Of a stretch of 64,000 nucleotides of DNA, positions 54,423-61,829 are shown piece after piece. Numbering within the stretch: the first letter of the stretch is position 1; every line of letters begins with the position of its first letter. Origin of the DNA: an uncultured Opitutales bacterium (GTDB taxonomy: Bacteria; Verrucomicrobiota; Verrucomicrobiia; Opitutales; Intestinicryptomonadaceae). The stretch is from positions 1-64,000 of the forward strand of contig CALXLX010000043.1 of NCBI GenBank assembly GCA_944389315.1, given 5' to 3'. The notes beneath the pieces were generated by a model, which saw only the letters and a list, made by a program, of their open reading frames with translations, made no database searches and had not been told where the DNA came from. The position numbers and the translations under genes were made by a program.

Positions 54423-56489
54423 GTGATATCAGTTGGTTTTCCAGACCCCTTCAATCTTCCCGAAATTTGCGACGGCATATTTCGCGAGGGCGGCAGCTTG
54501 CAGGCTCTTTTCGGGCTGGAGCACAGGACAGCCCAGCACGACATGGCCTACGCGTGCGCGCAGGCGTTCAGTTCGGACTCAAACTTGATATTCGAGGCTG
54601 GAACGGGGGTTGGAAAGAGCCTGGCGTATCTGGTCGGGGGGATAATCGCTGCGGTGGAGTTCGGCAGGCCTTTTGTGGTTTCCACGCATACAATAGCGTT
54701 GCAGCAGCAGATAATACGCCGCGAGCTGCCGCGCATACGCGAGCTTTTTTCAAAGACGCCGTCCCTGCAAAAATACGCCGGTTTCAAGTGCGAGCTTCTT
54801 TTGGGCAGGAACAACTACCTATGCACAAACAGGCTCAAGCGCGCCATAGCCGAGAAGACGGATCTTTTCGGCTCAAAGCAGAGCCTTGAGATAGAGCGCA
54901 TAGCCCGCTGGGCGGTGACGACGAAGACGGGGCTTGCCGAGGAGATGAATCCGCCGCCCGACTGGGAGGTATGGAGCTGGGTGAACGCTGATTCCTCGTC
55001 GTGCTCGTCGAAGAAATGTTTTGACGGGACCTGTTTTTACCAGAACGCGCGGCGGCGTGCGGCTGCGGCAGACGTTGTCATCGTAAACCACAGCCTGCTT
55101 TTTTCCATGATAGCCTCTGGCGCGGGAACAGACGCCGACACCAAGGGTGTTCTGCTGCCGGGCGACATGTGCGTATTGGACGAGGCGCACCGCATACCCG
55201 AGGTGGCTGGGGATAATTTTGGGCTGTCGCTCGGGCGTTCGGCGGTTATGCGCGAGCTCAAGCGCATCTACGATCCCAAAACGCGCAAGGGGCTTGTTTC
55301 CAGGTGGAAGATAGCCGGGGAGTTCGACAGGCTAGCCGTGGCGCGCGCCATAGAGGCCACGGAGGACTTTTTCGGCGGGATCAGGCGTGAATTTCTATCC
55401 TCGCGGGACACCGTTGCATTGAGCGCCGAAGCATGGACGGAACCCTTGCTGAACGCCCCCTTTGAGGAGCTCGCCCAGACGCTCGACAAGCTTGCCATGC
55501 GCGCAAAAACCGAAGACCAGAGCGACGAGCTAAAAGACTTCAAGCGCCGCATTGTAGGCATAAAAAACGCCGTTGAGGAGGCGGTATTCATAGCCAACGA
55601 GAAGCAGGTTTACTGGCTTGAGAAGCCCACTTCAGATCCTTTTGGGGCCACGATAAGGAGCGCTCCGCTCGACGTTGCGCCCATACTTTCGGAGGTCTTA
55701 TTTTCAAAGGGGACAAGCGTGATACTCAGTTCCGCGACCCTTGCGGCGGGAGACGGCAACCTTGAAAGCTTCAGGGACAGCGTAGGGGCGTACAGCGCCG
55801 AGTGCATGGTATGCCCCTCCCCTTTCGACTACCGCAACAACATGCGGGTTTTGCTTTTTGACGATTCCCCCGAGCCGGACAGGGAGTCCAAAAAGCTCGA
55901 GTGCGACTGGCTCGCGAAAAACATAGCCGCATTGTGTTCGGCCGTTAAGGGCGGAACTCTCGTGCTATTTACGGGATATTACGAGCTCAACAAATGCGCG
56001 GGGCTATTGCGTGGTTTTGAGTCATTGCAGGGCAGAAGCATATTTGTCCAGAAGGACATGCCGCGCGACAAGCTTGTCCAGGCCTTCGAGGAGTGCGGCA
56101 ACGGCATACTCATGGGCACGGACTCCTTCTGGACAGGGATAGACGTTCCCGGAGACGCGCTGAGGCAGGTTATCATAACAAGGCTGCCCTTCGACAATCC
56201 CGGGCACCCGCTGACGGCGGCGCGGGTTGACAAATGCGCCGCGGAGGGGGGGAATCCGTTCAGGCAGATAACACTGCCTGCGGCCGTGATAAACTTCAGG
56301 CAGGGGATAGGCCGCCTGATAAGGAAAAAGAGCGACAAAGGGCTGGTTTGCGTGCTCGACTCGCGCATACTAAACAAGCCGTACGGAAAGAACTTCATAG
56401 ACGCCCTGCCGAATGCCGACTACATCCGGGTTGATTCCGACTCCGCATTCGACGCTGCGCTTGAGGCCGACGAAAGCCTGTCTGTTTAG
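54423..56489 (+). CDS. DinG-family ATP-dependent DNA helicase
   Basis: DinG proteins are 5'-3' XPD-like helicases. The 688-residue protein has Walker A (EAGTGVGKSLAYL, near residue 60) and an Fe-S-type cysteine region (SSCSSKKCFDGTCFYQNARR, about residues 195-215, consistent with the DinG cluster). It also has a DEAH box (LDEAHRI) and C-terminal motifs (MGTDSFWTGIDVPG and RQGIGRLIR). It uses a GTG start at 54423. It is 108 bases after hpnH and may be a separate unit. YoaA-type helicases are an alternative name. Confidence 0.92.
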   Translation: MISVGFPDPFNLPEICDGIFREGGSLQALFGLEHRTAQHDMAYACAQAFSSDSNLIFEAGTGVGKSLAYLVGGIIAAVEFGRPFVVSTHTIALQQQIIRRELPRIRELFSKTPSLQKYAGFKCELLLGRNNYLCTNRLKRAIAEKTDLFGSKQSLEIERIARWAVTTKTGLAEEMNPPPDWEVWSWVNADSSSCSSKKCFDGTCFYQNARRRAAAADVVIVNHSLLFSMIASGAGTDADTKGVLLPGDMCVLDEAHRIPEVAGDNFGLSLGRSAVMRELKRIYDPKTRKGLVSRWKIAGEFDRLAVARAIEATEDFFGGIRREFLSSRDTVALSAEAWTEPLLNAPFEELAQTLDKLAMRAKTEDQSDELKDFKRRIVGIKNAVEEAVFIANEKQVYWLEKPTSDPFGATIRSAPLDVAPILSEVLFSKGTSVILSSATLAAGDGNLESFRDSVGAYSAECMVCPSPFDYRNNMRVLLFDDSPEPDRESKKLECDWLAKNIAALCSAVKGGTLVLFTGYYELNKCAGLLRGFESLQGRSIFVQKDMPRDKLVQAFEECGNGILMGTDSFWTGIDVPGDALRQVIITRLPFDNPGHPLTAARVDKCAAEGGNPFRQITLPAAVINFRQGIGRLIRKKSDKGLVCVLDSRILNKPYGKNFIDALPNADYIRVDSDSAFDAALEADESLSV

Positions 56490-56531
56490 TCTTTAACGCC
56501 GAAAGAATATGGAACGGCCGATAAACTTTTC

Positions 56532-56560
56532 TTGACGGAAAAACGCGTTTTTTTTATTAT
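56532..56560 (+). promoter_or_regulatory. Strong promoter with a palindrome in its spacer
   Basis: TTGACG (56532-56537), a 17-base spacer and TATTAT (56555-56560): near-consensus elements with optimal spacing. The spacer contains a perfect 14-base palindrome AAAAACGCGTTTTT (56539-56552), a likely repressor or DNA-bending site. It drives the membrane protein gene at 56592. Confidence 0.65.
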
Positions 56561-56591
56561 ATTTTAAATTCTACTATTTATTCATAAACAG

Positions 56592-58463
56592 ATGAGATCT
56601 TCCTTTCTTATATTTCTATTGGTGTGCATAGGCGCGGGCTACTTTTACTACGAAACCCAGATGCGCAAGCCAAAGCCCGTACAGACCTCGGACGACGCGG
56701 AGATAGCCGCCCAGGTGATGGACGCCCAAGTGGAGGACTACACCGCCCCGGAGGCCTCCGACAAGCTGACGCAGAGGCTCATGATAGAGGCTCGCAAGCA
56801 GTTTCCCGAGGCCTCGCAGGAGGCCCACGAGTCTTGGGTAAACGCGCAGAAGGCCGCAAAGCAGAAGATAGACGAGCTGAAGGTGCCCTCGTTCATACCC
56901 GAGAGCGAATACAAAAACTTGAGGGCCCACATAAACGATGCCAATCCGTTTCAATACCAAAATCAATACATAGCGCTGAAGAAGGCCTTTGGCGCCATAG
57001 CGGACATGGAGAGGATATCCAAGGCCAACGGGGTAGACACGGCCGACTTCAAGGAAAAGCGCCTGGAGATAGAGAAGAAGTTCAGGTTTGACTACGGCAA
57101 GCAGAGCGAGTTTATGGGCGAGTACGCCATGGCAAAGCGCAAGATGGACTCTTATAAGAATTCTCTTTCGGAGGCTGAATTCAAGCTTCGGACAGAAAAC
57201 GCCATGAAGAAATACCCCTTTTCCCCCGCCGATGCAGTGAAGGAATTTGCCGACCAGTGCGCTGCGGCAGACCGCATAGAAAGCGAATTTTCCGATCCAA
57301 AATATGCCGCGAGGCTCCGCATTGCGGAGAACGAGTTTCCCTTCGACTATGTGAAGCGCTACGAGAGTATGAAGGCCTCGTCCGACATAACCCAAACCAA
57401 AGGGGCAGTCGCCCTCATGGATTTGAAGAACGCCCGTGGGGAGCCAATATCTACGGAGCCGATTTTCCTCATGAGGACCATTACCGGGGCCAAGCCTGCG
57501 ACGCTTACGAGCCTTAGGGGGCGCAAGGTTCTGCTCATGCCGTTCTTCGTGCCGGAGGAGGGCAACAAATACACATTTGAGAACGGCAAGGAGACGATAG
57601 TCTGTTCAAAATTCATATGCTCCAAGGACTATCCCATAACATGTTTCTTCCCCGATTCTGAACCCCAGACGACCCCGGCGGTATTCATGACTACTTCCGC
57701 TTTGGCGGAGATAAGCGGGCTGCCTGAGATAGCCATAGGGCCGAACAATGTGGGAGTGCTGAGCATGGACGCGGTGGTTCCGTCGGTAACGGGAGACGCG
57801 CACATAAGGCTTGAGAGCCCGCTGAAGTCATTTCCTGCGGGCTGCGTGATGATAGACAAGGCAACAGGGGTTTATATTTCGCTCTCGGTAGATTATCCCC
57901 GCGCGCCCTATCTGCCGGAGAGGGCCTCCCTACCCTCTGCGGACACCCTCGTGGGGTCCGACACTCCCGACGCGCGCGTGTACAGAAATCTTATATTGCG
58001 CCTGAGCACCTTTGACAGGGTCTTCCGCGAGAAGCAGGAGCTTGGCATGAACAGGTTTGTAAAGCCCTCGGAGCTCGAGAATTGGGACGACTTAAAGAAG
58101 TCGGACATAGACGCCCAATACGCCGTTTTGGAAAACATATACAAGCGCTCCCGGGCCCTGGTAAAGTTCTTCATGACAAACAACCTCGATTCCATCGCCG
58201 AAGTCGAGGAGCTGAAGAAATTACACGAAAAGGCCGCCGACATAAGGAAAAAGTCATCAAAGGCTACGAGGGGCCAGTTGAGGGAGTACAGCACAACCCT
58301 GCTGTATTTTGTCAAAAACGACGTGGAAAAGATATCGCCTGAAAAATTCAATGCCGCCCTCAGGGAGGAGGCCGCCCACCAGCTCGAAATCCGCAAAATG
58401 ATTATCGACTACATAAATTCGGCGATAAAAGACGGCAACTTGGAGGCGCTCTATCCGCAATGA
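56592..58463 (+). CDS. Membrane-anchored protein with about five ~44-residue repeats and a beta-rich domain
   Basis: The 623-residue protein has an N-terminal membrane helix (SSFLIFLLVCIGAGYFYY) and then about five tandem helical units centred on aromatic motifs. They lie near residues 71 (FPEASQEAHESW), 120 (FQYQNQY), 164 (FRFDYGKQSEF), 208 (YPFSPADAV) and 249 (FPFDYVKRYES). A beta-rich domain (about 285-435) holds SFPAGCVMIDKATGVYISL, which resembles the last strands of trypsin-like folds but lacks a clear catalytic serine motif, so I would call it a degenerate protease-like domain at most. The C-terminus is helical. No family was recognised. It has its own strong promoter and an immediate ATG at 56592. 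Confidence 0.65.
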   Translation: MRSSFLIFLLVCIGAGYFYYETQMRKPKPVQTSDDAEIAAQVMDAQVEDYTAPEASDKLTQRLMIEARKQFPEASQEAHESWVNAQKAAKQKIDELKVPSFIPESEYKNLRAHINDANPFQYQNQYIALKKAFGAIADMERISKANGVDTADFKEKRLEIEKKFRFDYGKQSEFMGEYAMAKRKMDSYKNSLSEAEFKLRTENAMKKYPFSPADAVKEFADQCAAADRIESEFSDPKYAARLRIAENEFPFDYVKRYESMKASSDITQTKGAVALMDLKNARGEPISTEPIFLMRTITGAKPATLTSLRGRKVLLMPFFVPEEGNKYTFENGKETIVCSKFICSKDYPITCFFPDSEPQTTPAVFMTTSALAEISGLPEIAIGPNNVGVLSMDAVVPSVTGDAHIRLESPLKSFPAGCVMIDKATGVYISLSVDYPRAPYLPERASLPSADTLVGSDTPDARVYRNLILRLSTFDRVFREKQELGMNRFVKPSELENWDDLKKSDIDAQYAVLENIYKRSRALVKFFMTNNLDSIAEVEELKKLHEKAADIRKKSSKATRGQLREYSTTLLYFVKNDVEKISPEKFNAALREEAAHQLEIRKMIIDYINSAIKDGNLEALYPQ

Positions 58464-58700
58464 TAGGCGTTTTCGGATGAGCGGGGAGAAATCGCGCATC
58501 CGGCGGCAAATATGCGCGCCCGCCGGACGGCGGACGCTAAAGGCGCTATATGCTTATGTGTATTTCCCGCATATAGGCATGCCTCGACCGACGGCATAAC
58601 ACAAACCGTCAAGACGATATAAGACCAAACGCCGCCTGACTAAAGCGCCAACGGGGAGAAATCCGGGCTTATCTTATGCGGGGCATGTCCGCAAAAACCA

Positions 58701-61700
58701 TCAGTCGAATTTTCCATTTTGATAGTTTGCAAGAAGGGTTTCCGCCTCTTTCATCTGCTCGGCGGACAAGCGCTTGGAAAGCGAATCTGCATTTTTCGCG
58801 GCCGGAAGGTATCCGTTCTTTTCCGAAAGTTTATACCATGCGTATGCCCTGGCGGAATCGCGCTTTGCGAAGCTGTCTGAATCAAGCAGCTCGCCGAGCC
58901 TAAATTGGGCGAGGCTATCGCCCTGCCTGGCGGACTTTCCAAACCATTTTAGAGCCTCGTCAAGATCGCGCTTAACGCCTACTGCGTTTACATAGCAGGC
59001 CCCGAGCGCGCATTGGGCCGGAGCATTGTTCTGGGCTGCGGCCTTCTGGTACCATTTTACGGCTTCGCTATGGTTTAACTCCACCCCGAGGCCTTTTTCG
59101 TACAGAGCCCCCAAATTGTACTGCGCGTTGGGAGATTTTCTCTCCGCCGCCTTGGCAAACCACTTTGCAGCCTCGGCGTAGTTCTGCTCAATGCCCGTGC
59201 CGTCCTTATAGCAGTTGGCAAGCGCAAACTGGGCGCGTATTAACCCTCCCTGGGCAAGCTCCTTATAGAGCTTTACCGCCTCGGGGAAGTTCTGTTCAAC
59301 GCCTTTGCCGTTAAAATAACAGTCAGCGAGATTGGACTTCGCTATATTATATCCCTGACTGGCGGCTTTCTTGTACCATTTGACAGCTTCCGCGTGGTCC
59401 TGCTTTACTCCCTCGCCCATCGCATAACAAACTCCAAGATTATTCTGCGCTCTGGCGTATCCTTTATCGGCGGCCTGCCTGTATAGCTGGGCGGCTTTTA
59501 CTAAATCTTTTTCCACTCCCGAACCACTCTCGTACATGTATCCGAGATTGCATATGGCCCTCTCATACCCCTGGTCAGCGGCCTTCTGGTACAGCTGGAC
59601 GGCTTTTACCAAATCTTTTTCCACTCCCAACCCATTCTTATACATATATCCGAGATTGCATATGGCTCTCGCATACCCCTGGTCAGCGGCCTTCTGGTAC
59701 AGCTGGACGGCCTTTGCCAAATCCTTTTCCACTCCCGAACCACTCTCGTACATGTATCCAAGAGAGCATATGGCCACATCATACTCCTGATCAGCGGCCC
59801 TCTTATACCATTTGACAGCCTCGGCGTAGTCCTGCTCGACTCCCTTGCCATGATTATAGCAAACTCCAAGATTATTCTGCGCCATGTAGTATCCTTTATC
59901 TGCGGCCTGTCTGTATAGCTGGGCGGCCTTTGCCAAATCCTTTTCCACTCCCACCCCATTCTCGTACATGTATCCGAGACTAACCATGGCAATAGTATCA
60001 CCCTGGTTGATCGCCATCTGGTAGCATTTGATCGCCTCAACATAATCTTTCTTTAACTTATAGCAAACAGCAAGGCCTCTCAGCCCTTCACAATGGCCTT
60101 TATCCGCTGACTGCCTATATAGCTCTATGGCCTTGTTCAAATCTTGTTCAACGCCGAGTCCTTCCCTGTAAAGAAAAGCAATATTGCGTATGGAATAATC
60201 ATTTCCCTGGGCGGCGGCTTTCCTGTACCATTTGAGGGCCTCAACATAATCTTGTTTCACGCCTTTGCCGGATTCATAACAGGATCCCAACGCATTCTGC
60301 GCTCTGGAATTTCCCTTTTCCGCAGACTGCCTATATAACTCCACAGCCTTAACCAAATCCTTTTCTACCCCAAAACCATTCTCATACATAAATCCAAGAT
60401 TATTTATGGCCATATCATAACCCTGCGCGGCAGACATCTCGAACAGTCTGAGAGCCTCGGCATAATTCTGTTTTACCCCTTTGCCGGATTTATAACAAAC
60501 CCCAAGATTATTCTGCGCGTGGGAATCTCCTTTCTCCGCGGCCTGCCTAAATAATTCTACGGCTTTCTCCAAATCTTTTTTAACGCCCAACCCGTCGCGG
60601 TACATAATGCCAAGATTGCCGATGGCAACATCATATCCCTGAGCAACGGCTTTCTCGTACCATTTGATAGCCTCGGCGTAATCCTGCTTTACGCCTTTAC
60701 CAAACTTATAATAAATAGCTATGTTATTCTGCCCTAAGGCATTGCCATTCTTTGCGGCCTGCATAAACAACTCTGCCGCTTTGACAAAATCTTTTTCTAC
60801 GCCCAATCCGTCATTGTACATAAACCCAAGAGAACAGATGGCAACATCGTATCCCTGGTCGGCGGCTTTCTTATACCATTTGATAGCCTCCGCATAATCC
60901 TGCTTTACACCTTCGCCGTATTTATAGCAATCCCCAAGGCGATCCTGCGCATATGCGTATCCCTGGTCGGCGGCTTTCTTGTACCATTTGACAGCCTCCG
61001 CGTAATCCTGCTTTACACCTTCGCCGTATTTATAGCAATCTCCAAGGCGATCCTGCGCATATACGTATCCCCGGTCGGCGGCTTTCTTGTACCATTTGAC
61101 AGCCTCCGCATAATCCCGCTTTACACCTTCGCCTTTTCTATAAATATCGCCAAGAGTCAGGGCCGCGTCTATGTATCCGTTTTCCAAAGCTTTCTTGTAC
61201 CATTTGATAGCCTCGGCGTAATCCTGCTTTACTCCTTCGCCGAACTGATAACATGATCCGAGATTATACTGCGCCCTGGGGTATCCCTTCTCCGCGGCCT
61301 GCCTATATAACTCCACAGCCTTGCTCAAATCTTCATCAACGAAAATATATTGGGAGAATTCCCCAAGATTATTTATAGCGTATGCGTCTCCTTGCTTTGC
61401 GGCTTCGCTATACCATTTATAGGCCTCCTTGTAGTCCTGCCTGACTCCGGCTCCAATTTGGTAAAGAAATGCCAGATTATTCTGCGCGTAAACATTTCCT
61501 TTCTCCGCTGCCTGCTTGTATAGCTGAAAGGCCTTGGAGAGATTTTTTTCAACCCCACTGCCCGTTTCATACATTTTGCCAAGCAAGACGGCTGCGTCCA
61601 AATATCCGTTTTCAATGGCCCTTAAATACCATTTCTCCGCCTTCTGCGGATTGTAGCGCTCGTTCTGTTCATCGCTATACATAGCGCCTAAGGCGTACTG

Positions 61701-61829
61701 GGCTTGGGGATTGCCCAAACTCGCGGCTACATAGTCCCCATAAAATGGATCTGACAAATATGCGCGAGTAGCCATATATCCAAATACTACAGCCACTATG
61801 CCCACTATGATTCGTATAGCCTTTTTCAT
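58701..61829 (-). CDS. Sel1-repeat protein of about 27 repeats
   Basis: The 1042-residue protein has a membrane anchor or signal (IIVGIVAVVFGYMATRA) and about 27 Sel1 repeats of 36 residues, each with A-x-x-x-LG-x-x-Y and a G-x-GV-x-x-D/N turn. Two repeat types alternate through most of the array: an EKDLxKAxxLYRQAA type and a KQDYAEAxKWYKKAA type. This makes a 72-residue double unit, with local runs of one type near 60960-61190 and 59525-59760. Sel1 proteins act as protein-protein scaffolds, often in stress or host contact. It stands alone, and ATA-rich codon use fits the host genome. Confidence 0.9.
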   Translation of the reverse strand: MKKAIRIIVGIVAVVFGYMATRAYLSDPFYGDYVAASLGNPQAQYALGAMYSDEQNERYNPQKAEKWYLRAIENGYLDAAVLLGKMYETGSGVEKNLSKAFQLYKQAAEKGNVYAQNNLAFLYQIGAGVRQDYKEAYKWYSEAAKQGDAYAINNLGEFSQYIFVDEDLSKAVELYRQAAEKGYPRAQYNLGSCYQFGEGVKQDYAEAIKWYKKALENGYIDAALTLGDIYRKGEGVKRDYAEAVKWYKKAADRGYVYAQDRLGDCYKYGEGVKQDYAEAVKWYKKAADQGYAYAQDRLGDCYKYGEGVKQDYAEAIKWYKKAADQGYDVAICSLGFMYNDGLGVEKDFVKAAELFMQAAKNGNALGQNNIAIYYKFGKGVKQDYAEAIKWYEKAVAQGYDVAIGNLGIMYRDGLGVKKDLEKAVELFRQAAEKGDSHAQNNLGVCYKSGKGVKQNYAEALRLFEMSAAQGYDMAINNLGFMYENGFGVEKDLVKAVELYRQSAEKGNSRAQNALGSCYESGKGVKQDYVEALKWYRKAAAQGNDYSIRNIAFLYREGLGVEQDLNKAIELYRQSADKGHCEGLRGLAVCYKLKKDYVEAIKCYQMAINQGDTIAMVSLGYMYENGVGVEKDLAKAAQLYRQAADKGYYMAQNNLGVCYNHGKGVEQDYAEAVKWYKRAADQEYDVAICSLGYMYESGSGVEKDLAKAVQLYQKAADQGYARAICNLGYMYKNGLGVEKDLVKAVQLYQKAADQGYERAICNLGYMYESGSGVEKDLVKAAQLYRQAADKGYARAQNNLGVCYAMGEGVKQDHAEAVKWYKKAASQGYNIAKSNLADCYFNGKGVEQNFPEAVKLYKELAQGGLIRAQFALANCYKDGTGIEQNYAEAAKWFAKAAERKSPNAQYNLGALYEKGLGVELNHSEAVKWYQKAAAQNNAPAQCALGACYVNAVGVKRDLDEALKWFGKSARQGDSLAQFRLGELLDSDSFAKRDSARAYAWYKLSEKNGYLPAAKNADSLSKRLSAEQMKEAETLLANYQNGKFD

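Follow-up and report, generated by a model that had tools for sequence, protein, structure and literature searches.

Positions 56592 to 58463 on the forward strand of the 64,000-nt stretch of DNA analyzed here (the window) encode a 623-aa protein that the initial annotation described as membrane-anchored, with periodic aromatic repeats ahead of a degenerate protease-like domain. The open reading frame begins with ATG, and its product is 84% identical over residues 1 to 623 to its match in a second genome of the same genus, which carries the ortholog (G001; the genome with the window gene is G000). An N-terminal hydrophobic helix (residues 2 to 24, positions 56595 to 56663) is the predicted membrane anchor, in keeping with the anchoring first proposed from the sequence, and inspection of the 623-aa protein revealed no lipobox. 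It is followed by a linker with a pLDDT below 50 (residues 25 to 53, positions 56664 to 56750); this and all features below lie on the forward strand. Pfam gave no family for the full protein at E-values up to 10 and no PDZ domain, and a search of PDB sequences returned a single match with an E-value of 0.95, which is no usable relative. The layout was taken from an AlphaFold2 model built from 18 sequences (pLDDT 77), in which the C-terminal part is helical and the relative placement of the domains is unreliable because the pTM is 0.47.

The aromatic residues F71, F120, F164, Y208, and F249 were all present where they had been reported, spaced by 49, 44, 44, and 41 residues, and the period of about 44 residues goes beyond chance. 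When the profile of residues 51 to 275 (27 members) was compared with itself, off-diagonal alignments had E-values of 4.5e-18, 1.3e-13, and 1.8e-10, each from a single comparison. A unit profile made from other members, which left out the units of the window protein, its G001 ortholog, and four outside proteins, scored 38.5 bits on the whole 623-aa protein and marked five units of 6.9 to 14.8 bits each, the unit limits in those other members deriving from an iteration that had included the window protein. The same profile reached at most 11.2 bits on 1000 shuffles of residues 54 to 268, which are shorter than the whole protein scored. An iterated unit search across 41 proteins finally yielded 132 units, with the consensus PDIPAEEFAKIKAKAEKKFPGDYVAQLKWIKKQIEAYKEIDSKS.

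The model places five helix pairs at the unit positions within residues 55 to 262. Unit 1 covers residues 66 to 97 (positions 56787 to 56882; model helices 55 to 70 and 76 to 95), unit 2 residues 101 to 143 (56892 to 57020; helices 104 to 117 and 122 to 145), unit 3 residues 146 to 189 (57027 to 57158; helices 150 to 163 and 168 to 186), unit 4 residues 190 to 234 (57159 to 57293; helices 194 to 207 and 212 to 232), and unit 5 residues 236 to 266 (57297 to 57389; helices 236 to 248 and 253 to 262). Profile self-comparison, unit search, and model thus agree on the tandem helical repeats anticipated for residues 55 to 270, here five helical-hairpin units, and structure prediction, with both regions modeled together, returned this internal five-unit symmetry and the barrel after it. 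The five units may form one continuous superhelix, a feature only as good as the model with its pTM of 0.47.

The repeats were said to match no known family, and the window protein indeed has none in Pfam or NCBIfam. Searches with 27 family members gave at least 25 Pfam families among the matches listed (best E-value, 0.0035) and 13 NCBIfam families (best E-value, 8.3e-4, malate dehydrogenase), each in one member only, and we took them as chance matches. The structure-search lists of two full-length models were filled by the barrel; that VIA-align gave no solenoid rows says nothing on this point, and we claim no new fold for the repeats. TPR, Sel1, HEAT, and other helical-hairpin repeat families consist of tandem two-helix units; the present repeats are alike in this respect but have a unit of about 44 residues with a consensus of its own. 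This defines a helical repeat of about 44 residues to which Pfam and NCBIfam assigned no family.

The strands that follow (residues 291 to 433, positions 57462 to 57890) were expected to form a beta-rich, trypsin-like domain, and both Foldseek and VIA-align recognized a chymotrypsin/HtrA-like barrel. With residues 276 to 501 of the model, VIA-align retrieved HtrA/DegP protease domains (best Z, 15.8 at 3.0 Å over 172 residues, for DegP, 1ky9), and the 50 matches listed are, as we take them to be, HtrA/DegP/DegS and other proteases of the trypsin fold. Foldseek likewise ranked the protease domains of HTRA1 and DegP on top, with a best E-value of 6.8e-4, a probability of 1.00, and three matches at an E-value of 0.001 or lower. 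A second model, of the lipoprotein member L066 and from the same 18 sequences, showed the same fold (best VIA-align Z, 13.3). The window protein is like HtrA/DegP/DegS (S1C) in the fold of its protease domain, but it differs from them by having no catalytic triad and no Pfam PDZ domain, and by its N-terminal repeats and helical C-terminal domain. The Trypsin_2 (PF13365) profile gave no match to it.

Relatives that do match Trypsin_2 were found with the family profile: L060, L061, L062, and L048 score 39.8 to 58.1 bits against a cutoff of 27.6, and they have a C-terminal helical domain in common with the repeat family (residues 470 to 623 of the window protein, positions 57999 to 58460). In profile-profile alignment, window residues 288 to 612 were matched to residues 65 to 364 of L060 with an E-value of 5.2e-15, or 2.8e-17 with larger sets (37 versus 32 sequences); the beta domain alone gave 7.3e-9 and the C-terminal domain alone 9.5e-11, all of these values coming from single comparisons and not from a database search. 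The controls gave 0.39 for reversed columns, 0.84 to 1 for eight column shuffles, 0.54 and 0.95 for cross-domain pairings, and 0.097 for the repeat region. As a single sequence, L060 (residues 205 to 334) also matched the repeat-family member G003:C257 with an E-value of 2.4e-4. The two domains are collinear with those of the Opitutales Trypsin_2 proteins over about 290 columns; the Trypsin_2 set of 32 keeps the triad and does not match the repeat profile, whereas the triad is gone from the repeat family. Judged from these alignments, the barrel and the C-terminal helices share ancestry with those of Trypsin_2 proteins in this order that keep the triad, which makes the window protein a true pseudoprotease and not a look-alike, and bears out the degenerate protease-like domain of the initial annotation.

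The 32 triad-bearing proteins were defined by an E-value of 1e-8 or lower to a profile of four of them, with weaker HtrA-like matches outside the set. The protein L060 (L060:817-1932) and the other 31, all Trypsin_2 proteins of Opitutales, carry an unnamed C-terminal helical domain; in the four of the 32 that were run against Pfam, only the protease part scored above the cutoff, and the C-terminal helical domain was unmatched.

His96, Asp126, and Ser194 of L060 align with F319, P348, and A416 of the window protein, the pseudo-active site of its beta domain. All three residues are present in 32/32 of the triad-bearing proteins, a count that holds for that set since it was chosen by its match to the four-member profile. 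For the repeat family we used 37 members (open reading frames with a stop, at least 400 aa, an E-value of 1e-25 or lower, and distinct last 200 residues), a set without incomplete frames and some profile matches, such as G006:C8, G002:C1, and G018:C26. Among these, the His is kept in 1/37, the Asp in 1/37, the Ser in 4/37, and all three in none; 32 members keep no triad residue, 4 keep one, and 1 keeps two, so that the absence of a catalytic motif holds column by column. Gaps in the repeat family next to the Ser column make this the least secure of the three; two residues past it, a Ser stands in 14 of the 37 (counted from alignment rows) and C418 in the window protein. The Asp column is a Pro in 26/37 members (P348), and P354 (26/37), P358 (29/37), and D422 (26/37) are also kept, which suggests new constraints on the fold.

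Between the window protein and its G001 ortholog, pN is 0.099 and pS is 0.775; we give these values and no dN/dS ratio because change at synonymous sites is close to saturation. Of the three folded regions, conservation is highest in the beta domain (90% identity; pN, 0.055; pS, 0.69), with 79% identity for the repeats and 77% for the C-terminal domain, and pN is well below pS in every domain measured. The protein is under strong sequence constraint.

A strong and probably regulated promoter had been proposed to drive the gene alone. A promoter-like site, TTGACG-17-TATTAT, lies at positions 56532 to 56560 on the forward strand and matches the consensus at 10 of 12 positions; sites of this quality number 3 in positions 56300 to 58750 against a shuffle mean of 1.2 (standard deviation, 1.3). 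TTGACGG also precedes the G001 ortholog, with what by eye is a similar -10 element at equal spacing. Single-gene transcription is plausible, since the preceding gene is 102 nt away and the next one (58701 to 61829) is convergent; for regulation, nothing was found in support. The convergent gene, on the reverse strand, encodes a 1042-aa protein that by eye has many Sel1-like repeats; Pfam assigns Sel1 to a 144-aa member of its BLAST cluster, and G001 has a 737-aa relative at the same place.

With the single window sequence, matches were found in 14/54 genomes, and the 27-member profile matched 18/19 genomes of the same bacterial family. By our own reading the repeat family is present in 17/19, because the match in G005 is the triad-bearing L048; G007 is counted within the 17 by two fragments, and G009 (one contig), which gave no match in any search listing it, PF13365 included, was treated as unusable and not as an absence. 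For the order-, class-, and phylum-wide searches and those with L060 and L134, the genome samples were subsets drawn from larger groups. Sixteen of 177 genomes sampled across the order matched, three of them outside the family (G040, G096, and G106) and through triad-bearing proteins. A genome holds up to four copies by our reading, and G000 has three (on contigs C43, C38, and C24). The copies occur as lipoproteins of about 660 aa, as membrane-anchored forms of mostly 620 to 660 aa, and as signal-peptide forms of about 560 aa; a lipobox is present in most members of the first group, and by eye a signal peptide that ends in AQE or a similar sequence marks another. Five genomes (G002, G006, G010, G015, and G018) carry two or three tandem copies behind hisS and HU-like genes, again by eye.

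A tree of 69 proteins over 329 columns splits the 37 repeat-family members from the 32 triad-bearing proteins with a support of 100/100; it is unrooted, its six longest end branches lie in the repeat family, it carries a long-branch warning, and five of its rows have unusual composition. Those six triad-bearing proteins that come from the same bacterial family group together in a clade of their own (99/97), and the window protein falls within a mostly membrane-anchored clade of 14 members (96/88).

The repeat also occurs outside the pseudoproteases. Its unit profile matched 7/387 genomes sampled across the phylum, namely, G000 and G002 of the same family, three f79 genomes, and two f96 genomes. 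The f79 proteins L134 and L135 (242 aa, N-terminal signal by eye) have four units each and share the repeat with the pseudoprotease but have no protease domain; used as a lone query, L134 matched 3/288 genomes, including the G000 paralog on C24 with an E-value of 7.1e-7. In two f96 genomes, G609 among them, a single unit lies near the C-terminal end of a protein, as in the 318-aa L137 (L137:1465-2418). The full family profile matched 6/288 genomes (G000, G521, G579, G539, G275 weakly, and G462, where the match, L136, is a Trypsin_2 protein), and the repeat-region profile matched 4/236 genomes of the class (G000, G347 with an E-value of 3.0e-4, and weakly G220 and G275). The weak matches are L128 and L138 in G275 and L129 in G220, the last of which looks cytoplasmic by eye. 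The G347 protein L130 (L130:700-1911; 404 aa) contains six or more tandem units, each about 36 residues long and of the KKFPDDYSTQKFVYDQQ type; they resemble the later part of the 44-residue unit and are apparently a shorter form of it. Pfam gave no family above the cutoff for L130, L134, or L137.

One gene recurs beside the family. L072:5339-6352 and its relatives (c1) encode proteins of about 330 aa that by eye carry a signal peptide, one of which was run against Pfam and matched no family. By the limits of the open reading frames, the distance between a c1 gene and a repeat-family gene is 59 to 551 nt in G002, G004, G010, G011, G012, G013, and G018. A c1 match is present in 17/19 genomes of the bacterial family, in G000 on a separate contig (C12). 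As a conserved partner of the pseudoprotease, c1 is a lead and not an explanation.

We consider it likely, with a probability of about 60%, that the window gene encodes an envelope pseudoprotease, a disarmed protein of the S1/HtrA fold that has gained a repeat arm and serves as a noncatalytic binding scaffold or as a protease regulator. Its ancestor would have been a secreted trypsin-like protein of this fold with a C-terminal helical domain, in which the His-Asp-Ser triad was lost, presumably in a single event and in the direction of loss rather than gain. An N-terminal array of helical-hairpin repeats of about 44 residues would have been gained, and multiplication of the gene in one Opitutales family would have produced lipoproteins, membrane-anchored forms, and signal-peptide forms. 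The N-terminal helix would anchor the protein with its repeat arm and barrel outside the cytoplasm, and the arm and the former substrate groove may bind a protein, peptide, or glycan without cutting it, as the architecture suggests. The outcome would be either a binding scaffold or a regulator of an active envelope protease, for which the two Trypsin_2 genes of G000, both on C6 and distinct from the window gene, provide a candidate. More tentatively, and at somewhat less than even odds, the multicopy envelope pseudoproteases of Opitutales as a group would use arm and disarmed groove as a nonenzymatic receptor or protease regulator, and the repeat would be a movable module of the phylum.

A rival reading is that the protein still is an enzyme, with its reaction moved to other residues such as a C418 nucleophile. 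The window protein and its G001 ortholog do have a Cys two residues past the Ser column, where 14/37 members have a Ser, but no column of the beta domain holds a His in more than 2/37 members, which makes a moved His-dependent site unlikely, the Asp column is mostly a Pro, and the commonest Cys column is that of C338 (16/37), not that of C418; we regard moved catalysis as highly improbable. Loss of catalytic residues would also fit a decaying remnant without function. This we rejected as more improbable still, given that pN is well below pS in every domain measured, that G001 keeps an open frame of the same length among the same neighbors, and that the family is present in 17/19 genomes.

The remaining alternatives would give the pseudoprotease a more specific task. 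It may be devoted to regulating an active HtrA-type or Trypsin_2 protease, its repeat arm bringing in substrates or detecting misfolded protein, by analogy with MamO, the inactive partner that promotes MamE-dependent proteolysis (PMC4794232). Such a role fits the presence of triad-bearing relatives in six genomes from this bacterial family (G003, G005, G008, G013, G014, and G015) and of two Trypsin_2 genes in G000, but 9/14 sampled genomes of the family, G000 and G009 included, had no match to L060, and in the five that did, the match lies on a contig other than that of the repeat-family genes, in assemblies that are fragmented. We regard this as unlikely, and slightly more so the proposal that the protein is an adhesin or the arm with which a surface sensing system binds its ligand, feeding, for example, a chemoreceptor. 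Here the argument comes from neighbors: on contig C38 of G000 (L079:9330-18768), a lipoprotein paralog lies directly upstream of chemoreceptor, CheW, CheR, and CheA-like/response-regulator genes identified by Pfam, the same BLAST clusters follow in the same order in G001, and in G004 a paralog has two genes of the chemoreceptor's cluster in its vicinity. Tandem, strongly diverged copies would fit a diversification of ligands as well. The window copy, however, has no chemotaxis-type neighbors, and in five genomes the copies stand behind a hisS-like gene.

Trypsin-fold pseudoproteases are well known in animals, and for bacteria our literature search gave MamO as the example, a protein that is not known to have such helical repeats. 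We found no published description of the repeat pseudoprotease family by title and the start of the abstract, in a search that covered few subscription journals. MamO 5hm9 was also among the Foldseek matches of the second model (L066), with an E-value of 1.2e-3. MamO is a trypsin-fold protein of magnetotactic bacteria with a degenerate triad and active relatives alongside, as in the repeat family, and it promotes MamE-dependent proteolysis as an inactive partner (PMC4794232). MamO binds metal through two histidines (PMC4794232), whereas the repeat family, with no His column above 2/37, does not have a surface di-histidine metal site of this type in the beta domain of its 37 members. In this family, a whole set of disarmed copies stands beside triad-bearing relatives from the same order, some of them in the same genomes, and comparing the two makes it testable why bacteria retain disarmed proteases. 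The family also defines a helical repeat of about 44 residues to which Pfam and NCBIfam assigned no family, and a helical domain at the C terminus of Opitutales proteases for which Pfam had no match above the cutoff.
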